IMG/VR virus record: IMGVR_UViG_3300035034_003394
Location: 1-64,000 of that record
Reading direction: 5' to 3' (one strand)
Origin: a virus
Length of the DNA stretch: 64,000 nucleotides
The notes beneath the pieces were generated by a model. It was not told the DNA's origin and searched no databases. It saw only the letters and a program-made list of their open reading frames with translations. The first letter of the stretch is position 1. Each line of letters begins with the position of its first letter. The position numbers were made by a program, and so were the translations under genes. Positions 52,638-59,424 of this stretch are shown here, one piece after another.

Positions 52638-53207
52638 ATGGTAGACGGAAAACCAACAGTATACATAGACATGGATGATACAGCGGTCCAATTCAGTAAG
52701 CAGTTGAATAAATATAAAGCTAAGTATCCAGATTATCAATACCCTCAATCAATTATAGGCTTCTTCTCAAGTATGGAGCCAATGCCAGGTTTTTTAGAAG
52801 CTTGGAAAGTTCTTGGAGAGCATTATGATATGGCGTTCTGCACAAGGCCTTCTGTTTACAATCTTGGTTCTTATACAGAAAAAGCGGTCTGGGTTAGGGA
52901 TAACGTTGGCTTTGAGGCTCTTGAGAATTTAAACTTGGTTCCAAAGAAAGAGAGAATTGGAGAAGAAGGTGATTACCTTATTGATGACTGGGACATTCAT
53001 GGACAAACAAAGTTTAGAGGAGAATTCATGAGGTTCGGACATCAAGGGAAATTTAAAACCTGGAAGCAAGTAACAGAGTATTTGCTTGAAAAAGCTGGAG
53101 TTAAAAGTAATGGTAAGAACGGGCTTGGTTATTGCAAATCATGCGGAACTGATTTATTGCACAGAACGGAGTTTATTTCAGAGATGTGTGAAGATTGTAA
53201 TATATAA
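52638..53207 (+). CDS. HAD-type 5'(3')-deoxyribonucleotidase with C-terminal zinc ribbon
   Basis: 189 residues. NT5C-like HAD fold: motif I VYIDMDDT (nucleophile and acid Asp), FCTRPS motif II with Thr, KKERIG Lys, and DYLIDDW motif IV. It would dephosphorylate nucleoside monophosphates, adjusting pools during phage DNA synthesis. Residues about 165-189 add a four-Cys zinc ribbon (CKSCG and CEDC), not part of the usual enzyme. Followed after three bases by a paralogue. Confidence 0.85.
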   Translation: MVDGKPTVYIDMDDTAVQFSKQLNKYKAKYPDYQYPQSIIGFFSSMEPMPGFLEAWKVLGEHYDMAFCTRPSVYNLGSYTEKAVWVRDNVGFEALENLNLVPKKERIGEEGDYLIDDWDIHGQTKFRGEFMRFGHQGKFKTWKQVTEYLLEKAGVKSNGKNGLGYCKSCGTDLLHRTEFISEMCEDCNI

Positions 53208-53210
53208 GAT

Positions 53211-53738
53211 ATGATTAAAAGTTATTTAAGTAAAGAGACTGTTGAAGAAATCATGGATGCACTAACAAAAGTGCATGGTGGAAAAGAGATGGTATGGATT
53301 GATATGGATGGTGTTGTTGCAGATTTTGTTCCTAAAGCAACAGAAGAGGCTAAAAAAATGGGACTTACATTTAGAGAGTTTGCTGACAGGAGTGAATACA
53401 GGCATATTAAAGGTTTTTATAAAGACCTGCCTCTATATCCAGGAGCAAAAGAGGCGATTGAGATACTTGAAAACTCAGGTAAATATGAGTTATGTTTTGT
53501 GTCTGCACCATCTTGGGGGAATATAAGTTGTTTCTCTGATAAGAGAAAGTGGGTTGAAGAACATTTCCCTACCTTCTATAAGAAAATGGACCTATCCTTC
53601 CATAAAGGTCACTACATGGGGCATTATTTAATTGATGACAGAGTTAAGTATGGAGCTGGAGAGTTCATTGGTGAGCACATAATGTTTGGAAATGAGGAGT
53701 ATCCAGATTGGGATGCGGTACTAAAAAGATTGCTTTAA
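53211..53738 (+). CDS. HAD-type 5'(3')-deoxyribonucleotidase, second copy
   Basis: 175 residues. Same fold as its upstream neighbour: motif I WIDMDGVVAD near residue 28, SAPSW motif II, KMDLSFHKG Lys, and HYLIDDR motif IV near 145. It carries a 20-residue N-terminal helical extension instead of a C-terminal zinc ribbon. The two may differ in substrate. Its stop overlaps the next ATG (TAATG). Confidence 0.85.
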   Translation: MIKSYLSKETVEEIMDALTKVHGGKEMVWIDMDGVVADFVPKATEEAKKMGLTFREFADRSEYRHIKGFYKDLPLYPGAKEAIEILENSGKYELCFVSAPSWGNISCFSDKRKWVEEHFPTFYKKMDLSFHKGHYMGHYLIDDRVKYGAGEFIGEHIMFGNEEYPDWDAVLKRLL

Positions 53739-53980
53739 TGACGTTATTACTATTATTCAGTTTGTTCTTTCCAAGGATAAGTTTATTTATAGCTTATCTT
53801 GCTGGAGGAATTCCGCATAACAATGTCCCTTTGTTTTTTGATGTATTGGGTTCGTTAGTGTTTCCAAGGCTGCTTATAATGTATTATATTGTTTATGCAG
53901 ACCTTGGAATTGGATGGTTGATTGCTCATATAATTGCGTTCATCATCAAAATGATTGCAAACGGGAGCAGTGAAGACTAA
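53738..53980 (+). CDS. Small hydrophobic membrane protein
   Basis: 80 residues, ATG overlapping the stop of the nucleotidase gene. Hydrophobic segments at about 1-20, 28-45 and 52-75 with few charges, ending in a short NGSSED tail. It could be a holin or membrane accessory protein. An earlier ATG ten codons upstream is out of the likely coupling position. No family recognised. Confidence 0.55.
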   Translation: MTLLLLFSLFFPRISLFIAYLAGGIPHNNVPLFFDVLGSLVFPRLLIMYYIVYADLGIGWLIAHIIAFIIKMIANGSSED

Positions 53981-54040
53981 AAAAATTTTACTCTACAGTC
54001 CCAGTAAAATAAGGGATTTGTAAAAAAAGATTAAAAAAGA

Positions 54041-54073
54041 TTTGCATTTATAGAACATTTTGTCTTATATTTG
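54041..54073 (+). promoter_or_regulatory. Host-type promoter of the PTH2 locus
   Basis: TTTG (54041-54044), 21 bases, TATATTTG (54066-54073). It would read the PTH2 stub at 54114, with a leader of about 35 bases. Confidence 0.65.
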
Positions 54074-54113
54074 CGTATATATAATTGAAAGAAACAAATT
54101 ATAAAAACAAGTT

Positions 54114-54194
54114 ATGAAAAACTTATAGATTAATAATTCAAAATTAAGAATAGTCACAATACGTGATATTCATCCTGGCGCACAACTTGTTGAA
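54114..54194 (+). pseudogene. 5' stub of a PTH2 gene with in-frame amber codon
   Basis: ATG-AAA-AAC-TTA-TAG then a frame reading KLRIVTIRDIHPGAQLVE, nearly the same as the start of the PTH2 gene 1.3 kb downstream (KLRIVVTRDLHPGAQIAQ). The frame runs on without a stop into the homing endonuclease ATG at 54216. Probably the original 5' end of PTH2, cut off by the homing insertion. Codon 5 is TAG, at the equivalent place to the TAG in the downstream copy. Confidence 0.65.
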
Positions 54195-54215
54195 AATTTT
54201 TTACTACTTATTAGT

Positions 54216-55328
54216 ATGAAAGAAAAAAACAAAAACATCTTCATTAAAAAGGCGCAAAAAATTCATAATAATTTTTACGATTATAGTCTTGTAGAATATA
54301 AAAATGCAAGAACTAAAATAGATATAAAATGTCCAGTTCATGGAGTGTTTAATCAATTGCCTTTTCATCACGCTAATGGGGTTGGTTGTCCAGGTTGTGG
54401 AAACTTAAAAAAATCATACAAACAATCCTTATCAAAAGAAGAATTTGTAAAAAAAGCAATATCAATTCATGGTGATTGCTACAATTATAGCAAAGTAAAT
54501 TATAAGAATTATAAAACTCCAGTTACAATAATTTGTCAAAATCATGGAGAATTTAATCAAATGCCTTTGAATCACCTATCTAATAGGGGTTGTCCATCGT
54601 GTGGGAATGATAGAATGAAGTTAACTCTCGAAGATTTCAAAGTAAGAGCTCAAAGTGTCCATTCAAATAAATATGATTACTCTTTTACGGAATATAACAA
54701 TTCAAAAAAACCAATTGTAATAATTTGTCCAAATCATGGACAATTTCAACAAACTCCTCATGACCATTTATCTGGGCGTGGTTGTAATAAATGCGCTATA
54801 ATAGAGCGTGCTGATAAGCTTAAAAAATCACAAGAATATTTTATAATGGAGTCACATTTGATTCATGAGAATAAATATGATTATTCTTTTGTTAAATATA
54901 TTAACTCTAAAACAAAAATAAAAATAATTTGCCCAGTTCACGATGAATTTGAGCAGGTGCCAACACATCACATTAGAGGTATTGGTTGTCCACATTGCAA
55001 TGAGTCAAAGGGAGAAAAAAGGATTTCAAAATTATTAAAAGAAAATTTAATAAAATTTGAAAGGCAGAAGAAATTTAAAGAATGTAGGAATATAATGGAG
55101 TTACCATTTGATTTTTACTTGCCTGATTACAATATTTGTATTGAATTTGATGGTAGGCAACATTTTAAGTCTATTGATTATTTTGGGGGAGAAAAAGCAT
55201 TGGAATTAACGCAAATAAACGATAGCATTAAAACTGATTACTGTAGTAAAAGTGAAATTAAATTATTAAGAATTGCATATAATGAAGATTTGTTAAAGAA
55301 AATGAGTCAATTAATAGAAAGTTTATAA
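54216..55328 (+). CDS. Homing endonuclease with four zinc repeats and Vsr-like nuclease
   Basis: 370 residues. Four repeats of about 65 residues (starting near 12, 78, 143 and 208), each with a YDYS or YNYS strand, KIDIKCPVHGVFNQ-like strand and a GCPGC, GCPSC or GCNKC knuckle. The nuclease at about 265-365 has SKGEKRISKLLKEN, DFYLPDYNICIEFDGRQHF and LLRIAYNED. Same family as the gene at 36447. Upstream ACTTATTAGT is a weak late-box match. It is in frame with the PTH2 stub. Inserted within the 5' part of the PTH2 gene. Confidence 0.87.
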   Translation: MKEKNKNIFIKKAQKIHNNFYDYSLVEYKNARTKIDIKCPVHGVFNQLPFHHANGVGCPGCGNLKKSYKQSLSKEEFVKKAISIHGDCYNYSKVNYKNYKTPVTIICQNHGEFNQMPLNHLSNRGCPSCGNDRMKLTLEDFKVRAQSVHSNKYDYSFTEYNNSKKPIVIICPNHGQFQQTPHDHLSGRGCNKCAIIERADKLKKSQEYFIMESHLIHENKYDYSFVKYINSKTKIKIICPVHDEFEQVPTHHIRGIGCPHCNESKGEKRISKLLKENLIKFERQKKFKECRNIMELPFDFYLPDYNICIEFDGRQHFKSIDYFGGEKALELTQINDSIKTDYCSKSEIKLLRIAYNEDLLKKMSQLIESL

Positions 55329-55396
55329 TTATAGAAACATTTTATAAATTTTTACGTATAAAAATAAACACCAAAATAATTAAAAATAACTTAGAT

Positions 55397-55825
55397 ATGA
55401 AATAGGTAAAAAATAATGAAAAACTTAGAATAGTTGTTACAAGAGATTTGCATCCTGGAGCTCAAATTGCGCAATCGGCTCATGCAATGTCTCAATTTGC
55501 AGTCGAGTATCCAGACCAATTTAAGGAATGGTACGAAAATTCACAATACGTAGCATGTTTATCAATTGAAGACGAAGAGTCTTTATTGTCTCTTGTTGAA
55601 AAACTTCGACAAAGAGGAGTGTGTGTTTCTGTATTTCGTGAACCAGACTTAAATCATAAAGCAACATCTATGGCTATTGAAGCATGCGACCAAGCTCGTA
55701 GGTTAACAGGTAGCTTACGTCTTGCTCAAAAAGAATACTACGAACAGTGGGTTGATTCTCAAGGAATAAAAGAAGACCCTGTTAGTAATTTTCATATTAA
55801 TAACATTAAAAAAACAGCATCATAA
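55397..55825 (+). CDS. PTH2-type peptidyl-tRNA hydrolase, in-frame amber at codon 3
   Basis: Full reading is ATG-AAA-TAG-GTA then a 139-codon frame. The product resembles PTH2-family hydrolases that free tRNA from stalled peptides: KLRIVVTRDLHPGAQIAQSA, AHAMSQFAVEYP, SIEDEESLLSLVEKLR and FREPDLNHKATSMAIE. The fold begins at KLRIV, so the start must lie upstream, and the only in-frame ATG is before the TAG. A TTG at 55448 would delete the first strand. Readthrough by the amber suppressor tRNA encoded nearby is the simplest explanation; a non-ATG start is the alternative. Confidence 0.75.
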
Positions 55826-55849
55826 TGATGTGATGAAATATAAAAACAA

Positions 55850-55926
55850 CCTGGCGTAGCTCAGTTGGTTAGAGCGCTATCCTGATATTTGATAGAGGTC
55901 GTGAGTTCGAATCTCAGCCGCCAGGA
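55850..55926 (+). tRNA. Imperfect tRNA-Ile(GAT)-like gene
   Basis: Acceptor CCTGGCG / CGCCAGG pairs perfectly; D-stem GCTC/GAGC with loop AGTTGGTTA; T-loop TTCGAAT. Anticodon stem CTATC/GATAG encloses a nine-base loop CTGATATTT, two longer than normal; reading from the 5' side the anticodon is GAT. The T-stem has a G-G mismatch or a bulge. It may be a degraded tRNA or one with an altered loop. Confidence 0.6.
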
Positions 55927-55982
55927 GGTAACCAAAGTTAAAACACTTGCACGTAGTGGTTGCTGCACACTCAATGGAGTGA

Positions 55983-56684
55983 CTAAGATTTTAACATGTT
56001 CTTTGACTTATTGCTAATTAATTGACAAATGATGTCAAGGTATTTTTGAGCCTTTTTTGGCTTGAAATAATTCATTTGAGAAACATCAATTGATATTATT
56101 TCGATACCTTCATCAATACATGCTTGTAATTTATTTTGGTCATTTTTTATAATATTATTAAACTTATCTTCTCCGAATATAGGTTTGTAGTGAAAAATAC
56201 CATTTATTTCAATTGCAAGGTTAAAACTTGGTATGTATATATCTAACTCTGAATTTATTGCATCTTTTTGATTATAATGAATTTTAAGCTCTGGATACAG
56301 ATAGGCAAGTTGCTCCTCCAGCCATACTTCAAGTTTTGACCTACGAGTACCATGAGTCTTGTTTTTATTGTTGTGGGTTGCGCTGCAGGAGCGAGAGCAG
56401 AAGTTATTATTAGATTTTTTAATTTGACTTCTTGTTTTGGAGAACTCTTTATCGCAGTTTTCACATGTTACTAACTTTTGTTTATTGTGTGTTTTTGATT
56501 GCTGCTTAGCTTTGCATTCTTTTTTAGAACAAGACTTCAATGTTCTGGTAGAGTTTCCTTTTTTGAATTCTGTGATTCTTTTCTTGATTTCATAAAAAGC
56601 TTCTTCGCAATAATAACACTCGCATGATAATTTGTCCATTGATTTAGCAGAATTATATTCCTTGTCGGTGAATAGTGGTTTCAT
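55983..56684 (-). CDS. Zinc-finger endonuclease inserted in the tRNA island
   Basis: 233 residues. Three Cys-rich knuckles: CECYYC with a later CSKKEC, then CENC with CSRSC near residue 100. The C-terminal nuclease has SKLEVWLEEQL, then ELDIYIPSFNLAIEINGIFHY, the Vsr/DUF559-like core with acidic residues, and an IISIDVSQMN strand. Transcribed opposite to the tRNAs from its own late box. A tRNA 3'-half fragment lies directly beyond its start, so it has probably invaded a tRNA gene. Ends TAG. Confidence 0.82.
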   Translation of the reverse strand: MKPLFTDKEYNSAKSMDKLSCECYYCEEAFYEIKKRITEFKKGNSTRTLKSCSKKECKAKQQSKTHNKQKLVTCENCDKEFSKTRSQIKKSNNNFCSRSCSATHNNKNKTHGTRRSKLEVWLEEQLAYLYPELKIHYNQKDAINSELDIYIPSFNLAIEINGIFHYKPIFGEDKFNNIIKNDQNKLQACIDEGIEIISIDVSQMNYFKPKKAQKYLDIICQLISNKSKNMLKS

Positions 56685-56692
56685 ATTTTGTT

Positions 56693-56704
56693 TTTATATA
56701 AATA
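56693..56704 (-). promoter_or_regulatory. Putative late promoter box of a homing gene
   Basis: TATTTATATAAA on the minus strand, eight bases before the ATG at 56684. Confidence 0.55.
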
Positions 56705-56711
56705 GAAACAA

Positions 56712-56737
56712 TTTTCAAATCCCAGCCCCAAGGACAA
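56712..56737 (+). pseudogene. 3' fragment of a tRNA gene
   Basis: TTTTCAAATCCCAGCCCCAA followed by GGACA reads as a T-loop (TTCAAAT), the 3' half of a T-stem and an acceptor strand with a CA end. The matching 5' half is absent; instead the zinc-finger nuclease gene and its promoter lie there. Confidence 0.45.
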
Positions 56738-56740
56738 CAA

Positions 56741-56812
56741 GGTCTATTAGCTCAATGGTAGAGCAGCGGATTCTAACCCCGCAGGTTGTCGGTTCGAGCC
56801 CGATATGGACCA
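56741..56812 (+). tRNA. Amber suppressor tRNA, anticodon CTA
   Basis: A complete cloverleaf: acceptor GGTCTAT/ATGGACC (one G-U), D-stem GCTC/GAGC, anticodon arm GCGGA-TTCTAAC-CCCGC (four pairs plus an A-C mismatch at the loop), T-arm GTCGG-TTCGAGC-CCGAT, discriminator A. Canonical numbering gives anticodon CTA, which reads UAG. The alternative register (TCT, Arg) destroys the stem. The charging amino acid cannot be told by eye; related phages usually use glutamine. Confidence 0.78.
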
Positions 56813-56822
56813 CAAAACATAC

Positions 56823-56870
56823 GCAGTGACTCGGTTATAAAGCGGGAGGTCAAACTTCCCCACTGCACCA
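56823..56870 (+). ncRNA. tRNA-like element without anticodon arm (type 1)
   Basis: 48 bases: acceptor-like GCAGTG / CACTGC, a short D-arm-like GACTCGGTT, the linker ATAAAG, a T-arm-like GGGAG-GTCAAAC-TTCCC, and an encoded 3' ACCA. It abuts the next tRNA directly (ACCA then GGCG). A sister element lies at 57153-57203. Confidence 0.5.
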
Positions 56871-56946
56871 GGCGAATTAGCTCAGTTGGTAGAGCGCTAT
56901 CATCTTCGGATGGCAGAGGTCGGAGGTTCGAACCCTTCATTCGCCA
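56871..56946 (+). tRNA. tRNA with abnormal anticodon arm
   Basis: Acceptor GGCGAAT/ATTCGCC, D-stem GCTC/GAGC and T-arm GGAGG-TTCGAAC-CCTTC are regular. The anticodon arm CTATCATC-TTCG-GATGGCAG is three bases longer than usual and can close into a UUCG tetraloop. A five-pair stem with loop ATCTTCG would give CTT (Lys); reading CTTCGGA as loop gives TCG (Arg). Identity unresolved. Confidence 0.65.
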
Positions 56947-56951
56947 CAAAC

Positions 56952-57089
56952 GCCCGTGATGCAAGATTACAAGACGCAATGATAACGTTTAATTGTGAGG
57001 AGTAACAGTTGGTATATTCTTGCACTCGATTCCGAAACGTTGCAACAAAGTGGGAAAAGAGTTCTTTGGTTCGAATCCACTCACGGGCA
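56952..57089 (+). ncRNA. tRNA-like gene with large internal insertions
   Basis: Ends pair as a tRNA acceptor (GCCCGTGA/TCACGGGC, discriminator A) and contain TTCGAAT, but 138 bases separate the ends instead of about 73. A possible D-arm (GAGTA...TATTC around AGTTGGTA) and a TTGCA/TGCAA stem lie inside. The T-arm AGTGG...CCACT is interrupted by 16 bases. AACGTTT and AAACGTT could pair across the middle. Confidence 0.4.
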
Positions 57090-57094
57090 CAAAT

Positions 57095-57146
57095 GGGAGA
57101 AAGATATGTAAGGTATCAATCTCAGGTTCGAATCCTGGTTCTCCCA
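57095..57146 (+). ncRNA. tRNA-like element, truncated middle
   Basis: Perfect acceptor GGGAGAA/TTCTCCC, regular T-arm TCAGG-TTCGAAT-CCTGG, discriminator A. Only 20 bases replace the D-arm, anticodon arm and variable loop; they form one hairpin (GATAT/GTATC). It cannot decode. Confidence 0.5.
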
Positions 57147-57152
57147 CAACAC

Positions 57153-57203
57153 GCTGCAGCCATCAGGCTATAAAGTGGAGGGTCATTCCTCCCTGCGGCA
57201 CCA
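57153..57203 (+). ncRNA. tRNA-like element without anticodon arm (type 1)
   Basis: 51 bases: acceptor GCTGCAG/CTGCGGC (seven pairs), hairpin AGCC-ATCA-GGCT, linker ATAAAG, T-arm-like GGAGG-GTCATT-CCTCC, encoded ACCA. Same plan and same TATAAAG linker as 56823-56870, and also abuts a GGCG tRNA. Confidence 0.5.
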
Positions 57204-57351
57204 GGCGTAGTAGCTCAGTTGGTTAGAGCGCTGGAGATAAGGTTACCGAGCAAAAGCGTGAATTACGTAATAAGGCGAGTAGTATGTGTAAAGTGAAAAA
57301 GATTCACTCACCGTAACCCAGAGGTCGTTGGTTCGAGCCCACCCTGTGCCA
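57204..57351 (+). tRNA. tRNA gene with a 74-base insertion in the anticodon arm
   Basis: Acceptor GGCGTAG/CTGTGCC, D-arm GCTC-AGTTGGTTA-GAGC and T-loop TTCGAGC with variable loop AGGTC are tRNA-like. Where 17 bases of anticodon arm belong there are 91, starting CTGGAGATAA and ending GTAACCCAG. CTG/CAG and GGTTAC/GTAACC stack as a long stem, leaving about 65 bases enclosed. Too short for a typical group I intron. The anticodon cannot be read. Confidence 0.5.
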
Positions 57352-57367
57352 CTAAATATAAGTAAAA

Positions 57368-57877
57368 ATGAAAACAAAAAGAGAAACAACACAGTCAGTT
57401 ATTGACCACTTCATGTAGGTGGCTGATATACAAGATGGGCACAAAGTCCTTGAACCATCTGCAGGAGTTGGCTTATTAGCCGAAGGCATTCTTAAACATA
57501 ATCCAAACATTGATTTGGATTGTATTGAACTTAACTCGCAATGCAAAGAGGTATTGAGAGATAAGGGGTTCAATGTTATTTGGAGCAATTTTCTTGACTT
57601 CAAACCAAAGTATTTATATGACCGAGTAATTGGCGCACCAAACTTCAAAGACAACATCGACTGCGAACATGTCATGAAGATGTATGATTGCGTTAAAGAG
57701 GGTGGAAAAATCATTTCTATCATGTCTCCTTATTGGATGACTGGAAATTCGGAACTTCAAATTAAATTTCGTAAGTGGCTCGAAGATAAGAGTTACACAA
57801 TCACAGTCCTCCCAGATAATTCTTATATGGAGGATGGAAAAACTGTACCCACAATTCTTATAAATTTAGAAAAATGA
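57368..57877 (+). CDS. Methyltransferase-like protein, in-frame amber at codon 17
   Basis: ATG, 15 further codons (KTKRETTQSVIDHFM), TAG, then GTG and a 152-codon frame. The joined product matches class I SAM-dependent methyltransferases, whose first helix (TTQSVIDHFM) must precede VADIQDGHKVLEPSAG, motif I. The usual catalytic NPPF/Y is GAPNF here (near residue 100 of the full product), and HVMKMYDCVKEGGKIISI follows as in active members. So activity is doubtful. Starting at the GTG after the TAG would lose the first helix. Overlaps the next gene (ATGA). Confidence 0.75.
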
Positions 57878-58299
57878 AAAAGTTTAAGAAATACAGACCA
57901 ATTCAAGTAAGGTGGAATGAGGCTCTTGGAGAAAAAGAGTGCCCTTATGCGTATAGATGGATATTTAATTTTCACTTCTTCGCCATCAGAATTCATCATT
58001 TCATTAGAAGCGATGACAAGAGGTACATGCACGACCACGGATGGTCATTCCTAACATGTGTATTGAAAGGGAGTTATACAGATGTATCAAATGATGGAAG
58101 AGACTTGATGAAAGCAGGTTCTATCAGATACAGAAAAGCAACTCATGCTCATTATGTGGATGTACCAGAAGGAGGGTGTTGGACACTCGTATTCTCTGGA
58201 AGAAGTAAAAGGAAGTGGGGATTCTGGGTTGATGGTAAATTTAAAAGACCCTTGAAGTACTTTCACAAGTTTGGTCACCCACCATGCAGTGAACAATAA
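57874..58299 (+). CDS. Cupin-fold protein
   Basis: 141 residues. A small beta-barrel with MHDHGWSFLTCVLKGSYTD near residue 50 and later HAHYVDVPEGGCWTLVFSG and KWGFW, the wording of a phage/plasmid cupin family with conserved His residues (HDH, HAH) likely to bind metal. Substrate unknown. Coupled to the methyltransferase gene by a four-base overlap. Confidence 0.72.
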   Translation: MKKFKKYRPIQVRWNEALGEKECPYAYRWIFNFHFFAIRIHHFIRSDDKRYMHDHGWSFLTCVLKGSYTDVSNDGRDLMKAGSIRYRKATHAHYVDVPEGGCWTLVFSGRSKRKWGFWVDGKFKRPLKYFHKFGHPPCSEQ

Positions 58300-58312
58300 A
58301 AAATCAAAAACA

Positions 58313-58795
58313 ATGAAATCAATTAAAAATTTAAAAACAAAAATTATGAAAACGTTAGAAACAGTAAAAACAAAAGTTATGAAAAAAGAAAAATCAGTGA
58401 AGGTAATACCTACGCAAGAACAATTAGACAAGATGGTATCGGATTACCTAAAAGCTTCAGAGAAGCATTATTTCCAAACGAAATACGTGTGGGACAAGGA
58501 TTTTAAAGAAGATTACTGCAAAGTATTCTCAACAACATTTGATGGTAAACTACACTATGTAGCGGTTACGATTGAAGGTGGAAAGGTTAATGTCAAGGTG
58601 GCTGACACAAGTTGGGTTACAACAAAGAATCATCTTGGAATGCTTAAGAACAATGTGTTCCGTCAGGAGATGAAGCATAAGTCAGTTAAACCATCTGCAG
58701 AGATGAAAGTTAAGTGGGATATTGTCAAAAGGTTTATTGACGCAAGTTCTGATTCGGAAACATTGAAGTTAGAAATCAAAAAAATCTTACAGTAA
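58313..58795 (+). CDS. Hypothetical protein with Lys-rich leader
   Basis: 160 residues from the ATG 13 bases after the cupin gene. Residues 1-35 repeat K-x-K-x-M-K steps, basic and helical; the remainder is a mixed domain with conserved-looking SEKHYFQTKYVWDKDF and a C-terminal helix. Its stop overlaps the next ATG (TAATG). No family recognised. Confidence 0.6.
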   Translation: MKSIKNLKTKIMKTLETVKTKVMKKEKSVKVIPTQEQLDKMVSDYLKASEKHYFQTKYVWDKDFKEDYCKVFSTTFDGKLHYVAVTIEGGKVNVKVADTSWVTTKNHLGMLKNNVFRQEMKHKSVKPSAEMKVKWDIVKRFIDASSDSETLKLEIKKILQ

Positions 58796-59424
58796 TGACA
58801 ACATCAGAATTTATAAAAATGCTTCAAGAGGCAGACCCAGAAGGTAATGCTCATATAAGAATGGAGGGTGGAATCCCAGTTTTCGCAGAACACAAAGCTG
58901 GATACTGGGATGGCCCATACTCATACATTGATGAAGATGGAAACTACGTATATTCAACAAAAGGTTCTAAGATAGATTTGCATTGCAGAGATATTGATGG
59001 CTTTGTTGAACATCACTTTGATTTACATGACCCAGATAATTGGGATAACATTAAGAAGATGTTTAAGTTTGAACTTACATATTCATTCCCAGAGCAAAGA
59101 AAAGAAAGAGAGGATAGAATCTTGAAGATTGCAAAAGAAGCTTGGGATGAAGAGTATGAAATGGAAAAGAGATTTTTTGATGAAAACATAAAAAGAAATT
59201 CAGACAATGCAAAAGATGGTTGGACCTGGTTTCAAAACAAAGAGGTTGACAACAAAGAGTTAAAACCAAATATGCATCATTATTATACATGGAAGGTGTA
59301 TGATAAAGACGAAAAAGAGCAAGGCTCAAATCTGCATAACACACATGGTGTTTATAAGTCTGGTTTATTTGAAAGATTGGATAACAACAAAAAACCTGGA
59401 TACTATCAGTGGGTTTTAAAGTAA
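58795..59424 (+). CDS. Hypothetical acidic protein
   Basis: 209 residues. Starts TTSEFIKMLQEADPEGNAHIR, a pattern seen in small phage proteins with a helical N-terminus, then Gly/Tyr-rich segments, a charged helix (KEREDRILKIAKEAWDEEYE near 105) and a Trp/His-rich end. No catalytic motif. Translationally coupled to the gene before it; terminator follows. Confidence 0.62.
   Translation: MTTSEFIKMLQEADPEGNAHIRMEGGIPVFAEHKAGYWDGPYSYIDEDGNYVYSTKGSKIDLHCRDIDGFVEHHFDLHDPDNWDNIKKMFKFELTYSFPEQRKEREDRILKIAKEAWDEEYEMEKRFFDENIKRNSDNAKDGWTWFQNKEVDNKELKPNMHHYYTWKVYDKDEKEQGSNLHNTHGVYKSGLFERLDNNKKPGYYQWVLK

Follow-up and report, generated by a model that had tools for sequence, protein, structure and literature searches.

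An early in-frame TAG in phage peptidyl-tRNA hydrolase 2 genes and the CUA tRNAs that may read it

How would a phage make an enzyme whose gene carries an amber codon in frame at the third position? The question is raised by a gene for peptidyl-tRNA hydrolase 2 (PTH2) in the window, that is, the whole 64,000-nucleotide stretch analysed here, which covers positions 1–64000 of a 64.3-kb virus record (IMGVR_UViG_3300035034_003394). The gene lies on the plus strand at 55397–55825 and begins ATG-AAA-TAG-GTA; it would encode 142 residues if the TAG at codon 3 (55403–55405, plus strand) were read. A first-pass annotation, made from the letters alone, had recorded this in-frame TAG correctly and had proposed that a nearby tRNA with a CUA anticodon reads it, as a possible timing switch. 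Selective, local readthrough of the early PTH2 TAG by such a tRNA is, in our analysis, a well-supported prediction from sequence comparison. We consider it quite likely that PTH2 is stop-gated, with a CUA tRNA reading UAG, both in the window phage and across many other kinds of phage.

The early stop in PTH2 homologues

The source of the window is a tailed-phage genome, and its proteins match phage families such as a baseplate hub, a DnaB helicase and a ribonucleotide reductase. The region 53001–59000 recurs as identical DNA in three other IMG/VR contigs (81, 117 and 195 kb), which do not count as independent evidence; since the four assemblies agree, the TAGs are not an error of one assembly. 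By sequence match, the gene is assigned to the PTH2 family (Pfam PF01981, E = 5.6e-10), and the A3 family profile matched the archaeal Pth2 structure 2zv3 (E = 1.5e-9). No ATG, GTG or TTG occurs between the TAG and strand β1 of the fold.

A tblastn search with PTH2 in a phage collection pointed initially to two huge phages, LR756500 (462 kb) and LR756501 (735 kb), both of which have a PTH2 beginning ATG-NNN-TAG and CUA tRNAs nearby. In viral contigs, an alignment search gave 36 loci and a broader search the best 80 of 148 relatives; five metagenome-assembled genome (MAG) loci from genome contigs and 19 from the phage collection were added. A single profile was used to score 137 loci in all; grouping at 95% identity gave 90 clusters, each counted by one representative. 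The phages Arash, ME3, GAP32, LR756511 and RaK2 were read later and stand outside the 90 clusters.

An early in-frame stop precedes the PTH2 domain, or an HD domain fused to it, in 81 of the 90 clusters, as TAG in 80 and as TAA in one. On the point that the first-pass annotation had named as a check, whether homologues keep the TAG or replace it, the TAG was strongly kept. The layout consists of a start codon, zero to eight codons and the stop, which falls at codon 2 in 5 clusters, codon 3 in 46, codon 4 in 14, codon 5 in 14, and codons 9 and 10 in one cluster each. The stretch from stop to fold lacked any ATG, GTG or TTG in 68 of the 81. The nine ungated clusters were L080, L156, L163, L172, L173, L174, Aeromonas phage ZPAH1 and two Lak phages. 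Lak-B7 (L179) was set by hand as ungated, although it satisfies the mechanical rule (ATG, two codons, TAA), because a later ATG sits in a similar place in Lak-A1; counting it as gated gives 82/90 with two TAA. In the TAG-recoded Lak phages, a tRNA with a TTA anticodon was seen ~0.6–0.75 kb upstream of PTH2 (L179:4356 and L183:4251), at ~0.6 kb in Lak-B7.

This conservation bears on one alternative, that the TAGs are mutations in dying genes or assembly errors. Decay fits a methyltransferase-like frame in the window that has lost its NPP[FYW] motif and whose TAG was seen in one phage only (see below), and the PTH2 frame of L091 is broken in its C-terminal part. For PTH2, however, the early stop is retained in the 81 clusters while the frame is otherwise conserved among diverse proteins (42% median pairwise identity; single linkage gives 45 groups at 70% and 8 at 50%), and independently sequenced isolates share it, as do the four assemblies of the window. 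The explanation is barely credible as a general one: it is refuted for PTH2 as a family and stands for the methyltransferase.

The context of the stop was also distinctive. The base 3′ of the gate was A in 59 clusters, G in 21 and C in one, hence a purine in 80/81, versus 64/118 where TAG truly ends an ORF in the 90 representative loci (Fisher p = 4e-14). At codons 4–6 of open reading frames (ORFs) in these loci, the first base was a purine in 66%. A 3′ purine favours amber suppression, as known from E. coli genetics.

A scan for early stops (ATG, zero to four codons, stop, open frame) covered 79 loci after 39 of 118 had been removed by hand as repeats. Such frames carried TAG in 87 cases, TAA in 28 and TGA in 9; ORF terminators in the same loci were 861 TAA, 202 TGA and 114 TAG (n = 1177). 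Read by eye, the 87 TAG frames comprised 56 PTH2 genes, 13 copies of a small neighbouring gene (gene 2), 8 endonuclease fusions and 10 others.

These counts also speak to genome-wide recoding (genetic code 15), in which TAG would mean glutamine throughout and PTH2 would be one recoded gene of many. A CUA suppressor tRNA is indeed the hallmark of TAG-recoded phages (PMC10607447; PMC6784885). Yet TAG ends 7 of 61 ORFs in the window and 25 of 222 on the 195-kb contig, besides the 114 of 1177 in the scanned loci. The first-pass remark that TAG still ends genes was therefore borne out, including its example of an ORF (66–548), a putative RNase H, that terminates in TAG-TAA. Reading TAG as sense adds just 0 to 8 percentage points of coding cover per locus (38 tested), and early in-frame TAGs cluster in PTH2 and its neighbours. 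Code 15 is marked by TAG that is abundant in frame and absent as a terminator, a pattern that the window phage does not show. As TAG is an ordinary terminator in this phage, there is no genome-wide recoding; on the terminators and the coding cover we rejected this explanation, which we regard as very improbable.

CUA tRNAs accompanying the proposed gate

The tRNA of the window lies on the plus strand at 56741–56812, 0.9 kb downstream of PTH2, and has the anticodon loop TTCTAAC. Its identification from the letters alone was confirmed by ARAGORN (56741–56813) and by Rfam (RF00005, 63.2 bits, 56741–56812), and on both calls it has the cloverleaf and CUA anticodon that define a candidate amber suppressor.

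Across the survey, 71 of the 81 gated clusters have a CUA tRNA in the locus, 66 of them detected by ARAGORN and five by a covariance model built on 22 CUA tRNAs. The model added L065, L086/87, L088, L092 and L115; two of its training sequences were of a kind with a short D arm. These D-arm-short CUA tRNAs, 65–66 nt long, lie ~0.2 kb upstream of the gated start in five loci (L086:9703-9768, L087:9699-9764, L088:9690-9755, L090:8736-8800 and L092:9705-9770). ARAGORN did not call them, and they scored below the Rfam gathering threshold in L087 and L088, the two tried. Phages XacN1 and RAS14 carry CUA tRNAs elsewhere in the genome (two and one, respectively). Among 50 loci, gated or not, with at least three tRNAs including a CUA tRNA, the latter was the tRNA nearest to PTH2 in 29, versus 9.4 expected.

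The sole TAA gate counted, in L091, is accompanied by a tRNA with a UUA anticodon 1.8 kb downstream, and no CUA tRNA was found on that contig. This pairing of TAA with UUA is what a decoding link between gate and tRNA predicts.

The anticodon loop was CTCTAAA in 53 of 72 scored relatives. Of these 72 tRNAs, 44 had A at position 73, and T and G each occurred in 14 (5 of 77 were not scored); the acceptor stem, including 1:72, also varied. This variation at position 73 and 1:72 gives no basis for naming the inserted amino acid. The diversity of tRNA bodies suggests that the inserted residue is not under selection; at a gate in the first codons its identity probably hardly matters, which would explain why very different suppressor tRNAs accompany the same gene.

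Cultured phages, rival readings and proposed mechanism

Several cultured phages carry the same arrangement (# denotes the in-frame stop). In pT24, PTH2 begins MK#, a CUA tRNA is present and the annotated start lies downstream of the TAG. XacN1 and RAS14 have MK# ahead of an HD-PTH2 fusion; in XacN1, the Met-Lys-TAG stands just upstream of the annotated start of ORF364, whose ATG is an alternative start. Fusions of PTH2 with an HD-like domain occur in either order (L157, L175 from pT24, L176 from XacN1 and L178 from RAS14). In the BF-like phages the HD gene is separate from PTH2 and adjacent to it: BF, SNUABM_19, XbC2 and GAP32 have a PTH2 beginning MTH#, MAH# or MAQ#, unannotated or started downstream, and an HD gene that is split between coding sequences and has TAG as its codon 47. 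By eye, Arash and ME3 have a valine codon at this place of the HD gene; their PTH2 genes are gated (ML# and MT#) and accompanied by a CUA tRNA, annotated as Phe in Arash. Current annotation of BF, SNUABM_19, GAP32, XbC2, pT24 and XacN1 thus has PTH2 or HD genes that are absent, started past the TAG or split. LR756511 has MTH#, and its 8.3-kb locus lacks a CUA tRNA. Klebsiella phage RaK2 is not gated; an ATG follows the upstream TAG, and its 7.3-kb locus contained no CUA tRNA. A related C-terminal extension was seen on PTH2 in L086–L090.

Six mycobacteriophages were read. The Bixzunaviruses IkeLoa, NoodleTree and Alice have ATG-TAG-GTG, and the Myrnaviruses Myrna, Phabba and ScoobyDoobyDoo GTG-TAG-GTG. 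An annotated CUA tRNA lies 180–250 bp downstream in IkeLoa, Alice and ScoobyDoobyDoo. ARAGORN found one in Myrna, where it is annotated as Ser, and in the Phabba locus, where none is annotated; NoodleTree has an untyped tRNA at the corresponding place.

In these mycobacteriophages the annotators chose the GTG after the TAG as the start, in line with a rival reading in which ATG-n-TAG is an upstream leader, or minigene, and PTH2 re-initiates after the stop at AUU, GUG or another codon. The stop would then regulate through peptidyl-tRNA drop-off, and PTH2 would sense the substrate on which it acts. Start-proximal stops do cause such drop-off, as in the lambda bar minigenes, and ATT directly follows the stop in 38 of 81 clusters, GTG or ATG in 5. 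Other next codons, such as GTA, GTT, ACA, AGC, AAA, AAC, CTT and GGC, are nevertheless implausible starts, and we rejected an AUU start as a general explanation because the following codons are too varied. A leader also leaves unexplained a near-constant TAG where TAA is the commonest terminator, the CUA tRNA beside the gate and the TAA/UUA pair, and the TAG of the BF-like HD genes stands far from the start. We therefore judge re-initiation improbable, though less so than recoding or decay.

Several observations weigh against a gate read by CUA tRNAs. Since the GTG after the TAG is a usable start, the mycobacteriophage gate is not forced and is weaker evidence. An ATG lies between stop and fold in L072, L088, L113 and L137, a TTG in L098, L101 and L132, and canonical start codons are present downstream of the gate in XacN1 and RAS14. 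No CUA tRNA was found with the gated PTH2 of L083, L099, L106, L158 and LR745206, of which four are 10–30-kb contigs and LR745206 spans 635 kb; the only candidates in LR756504 and on the L154 contig are tRNAs whose enlarged loop contains TTCTAAC and to which ARAGORN could not assign a CTA anticodon. Conversely, the ungated L163, L172 and L174 have a CUA tRNA 0.3–0.6 kb from PTH2, so the tRNA can occur without the gate. All 69 of 69 CUA tRNAs share the strand of PTH2, but so do 522 of 527 other tRNAs, which makes the placement uninformative. The TAA/UUA match is one case, on a contig whose PTH2 frame breaks. As for the enzyme itself, the position aligned with the lysine of the archaeal GKGK motif, which has a catalytic role, is not lysine in the phage PTH2 family profile.

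Under readthrough by the CUA tRNA, which remains our preferred reading, translation would start at ATG (GTG in some mycobacteriophages) and run into UAG only a few codons later. There, release factor 1 would end PTH2 synthesis, except when the CUA tRNA of the phage, in most cases encoded close by, reads the codon and lets the ribosome continue into the PTH2 domain. The conserved stop, its purine context, the tRNA and the single TAA/UUA pair are observed, and we infer that the tRNA is charged, reads through and thereby regulates; PTH2 output would then report working, charged suppressor tRNA relative to release factor. Rescue of peptidyl-tRNA could in this manner be coupled to the phase of infection in which the phage makes tRNAs and suppresses stops, a phase in which drop-off and run-on ribosomes would rise. 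As a purpose, a coupling of rescue with either suppression or the phase of infection is a tentative suggestion, somewhat on the doubtful side. A broader reading, to which we give even chances, is that a dedicated regulatory module of suppressor tRNA and codon-gated gene is widespread in standard-code phages. The gated product, either PTH2, in many cases accompanied by an HD domain or neighbour, or a small protein, would form a circuit, feedback or feed-forward, through which the stop-reading state of the cell sets peptidyl-tRNA rescue, and homing endonucleases would have captured the gate for their own expression.

The proposed gate resembles known systems in part. In prfB, which encodes release factor 2, an early in-frame stop likewise ties a translation factor to termination capacity; that autoregulation uses UGA and a +1 frameshift and no dedicated tRNA, whereas here UAG would be read in frame by a phage tRNA. 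Pyrrolysine and selenocysteine insertion similarly employ a special tRNA that reads a stop in particular genes. The gate differs in that no single special tRNA identity is evident, because the acceptor stem and position 73 vary widely. Code-15 phages (crAss-like and Lak) share the phage CUA tRNA, UAG inside genes and a standard-code host, and their suppressor tRNAs have been proposed to time late genes. The timing idea is restated in PMC10746230. Code-15 phages place TAG throughout structural genes, whereas here TAG terminates normally and the gate is found at the beginning of a single enzyme gene, with few companions; coding-density screens of the kind described in PMC13037316 should miss it.

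CUA tRNAs have been reported from jumbo phages before. The XacN1 paper (PMC5852040) describes two CUA tRNAs, for which the authors sought target genes and identified none; we found the Met-Lys-TAG start in the HD-PTH2 gene of the same phage. The RsoM2USA paper describes a suppressor tRNA without a demonstrated target and notes UAG as abundant, and the Atu_ph07 paper (PMC6102473) likewise gives a suppressor tRNA with no demonstrated target. As a possible opal analogue, Agrobacterium phage Atu_ph07, with its UCA tRNA (same source), gave a weak PTH2 match only, and we make no claim for it. One survey of jumbo phages reports the occurrence of PTH2 and, in the text covered, nowhere uses the term 'stop codon'. 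No link between PTH2 and an in-frame stop appeared in the literature covered, namely titles and the openings of abstracts, with subscription papers mostly outside this scope. A stop-gated PTH2 with its suppressor tRNA would be a widespread genetic switch that has apparently gone unreported. If so, the module would explain the 'orphan' CUA tRNAs of many jumbo phages, and the early PTH2 TAG offers CUA tRNAs a concrete target that can be tested in cultured phages, the mycobacteriophages of M. smegmatis among them. By this route, a phage would place a single gene under stop-codon control without recoding its genome.

Other genes and RNAs around the proposed gate

Gene 2, of ~85 amino acids, is, like the HD gene of the BF-like phages, a candidate second target of the tRNA. 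It lies just downstream of PTH2 and has TAG at codon 3 in 13 loci; in four loci its homologues lack the TAG and begin at the same place. Three members compared with Pfam and PHROG gave no match.

Upstream of the window PTH2, the first-pass annotation had described a diverged PTH2 stub with its own TAG. The TAG is present (codon 5, 54126–54128) in a PTH2-like start; this start appears to be a copy, fused in frame to a homing-endonuclease-like ORF (54114–55328, plus strand; DUF723/treble-clef by Pfam). Similar endonuclease fusions occur in other phages, with NUMOD3/HNH at the same place, and in the fusion of L090 the first codons alone are PTH2-like.

The methyltransferase-like ORF (57368–57877, plus strand) had been proposed as a second readthrough target. 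Its TAG at codon 17 (57416–57418) is present, and homologues align through it. Among the best 80 of 195 relatives, however, three are the window phage, and in the 77 others the 30 codons ahead of the match are free of stops; the TAG of the window copy did not recur in another phage among the relatives examined. The 77 keep the motif NPP[FYW], which reads APNF in the window copy, and one of them (L295) has a TAG elsewhere in the domain, at residue 61 of the match. With the motif lost and the TAG seen, among these relatives, in the window phage alone, we rejected the gene as a conserved target; it is probably decaying and outside the conserved module.

A further candidate of in-phage readthrough, which would be the third, was seen on the 195-kb contig (G003), where a 328-codon ORF ends in TAG and is followed in frame by a patatin-like ORF (1155–2195; L042:165-2195 for the whole); the nearest start listed for this ORF is TTG.

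A minus-strand ORF of 233 amino acids (55983–56684) separates PTH2 from the CUA tRNA; it has no Pfam match and is endonuclease-like by eye only. Three further plus-strand tRNAs were found by ARAGORN and Rfam: one with an enlarged anticodon loop (55850–55926; Ile GAT with a 2-nt insert when introns are allowed), tRNA-Lys (CTT) at 56871–56947, and one with an insertion in the anticodon arm (57204–57351; Leu AAG with a 65-nt insert, introns allowed). Among these real tRNAs, tRNA-like elements were noticed by eye at 56822–56870, 56954–57092, 57092–57150 and 57150–57204. They have acceptor-stem-like pairing, a T-arm-like hairpin and a CA or CCA end, with no clear D or anticodon arms, and drew no call from ARAGORN or Rfam; they are possibly decayed tRNAs or tRNA-like RNAs.

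A contig with a gated PTH2 also carries a GOLLD RNA (L065:12976-13382, 281.6 bits). On G003 (L042–L051), 46 Rfam tRNA matches and 44 ARAGORN tRNAs were counted, several with insertions in the anticodon region, and genes for an RNA ligase and for a Hen1-like RNA repair protein lie on the same contig.

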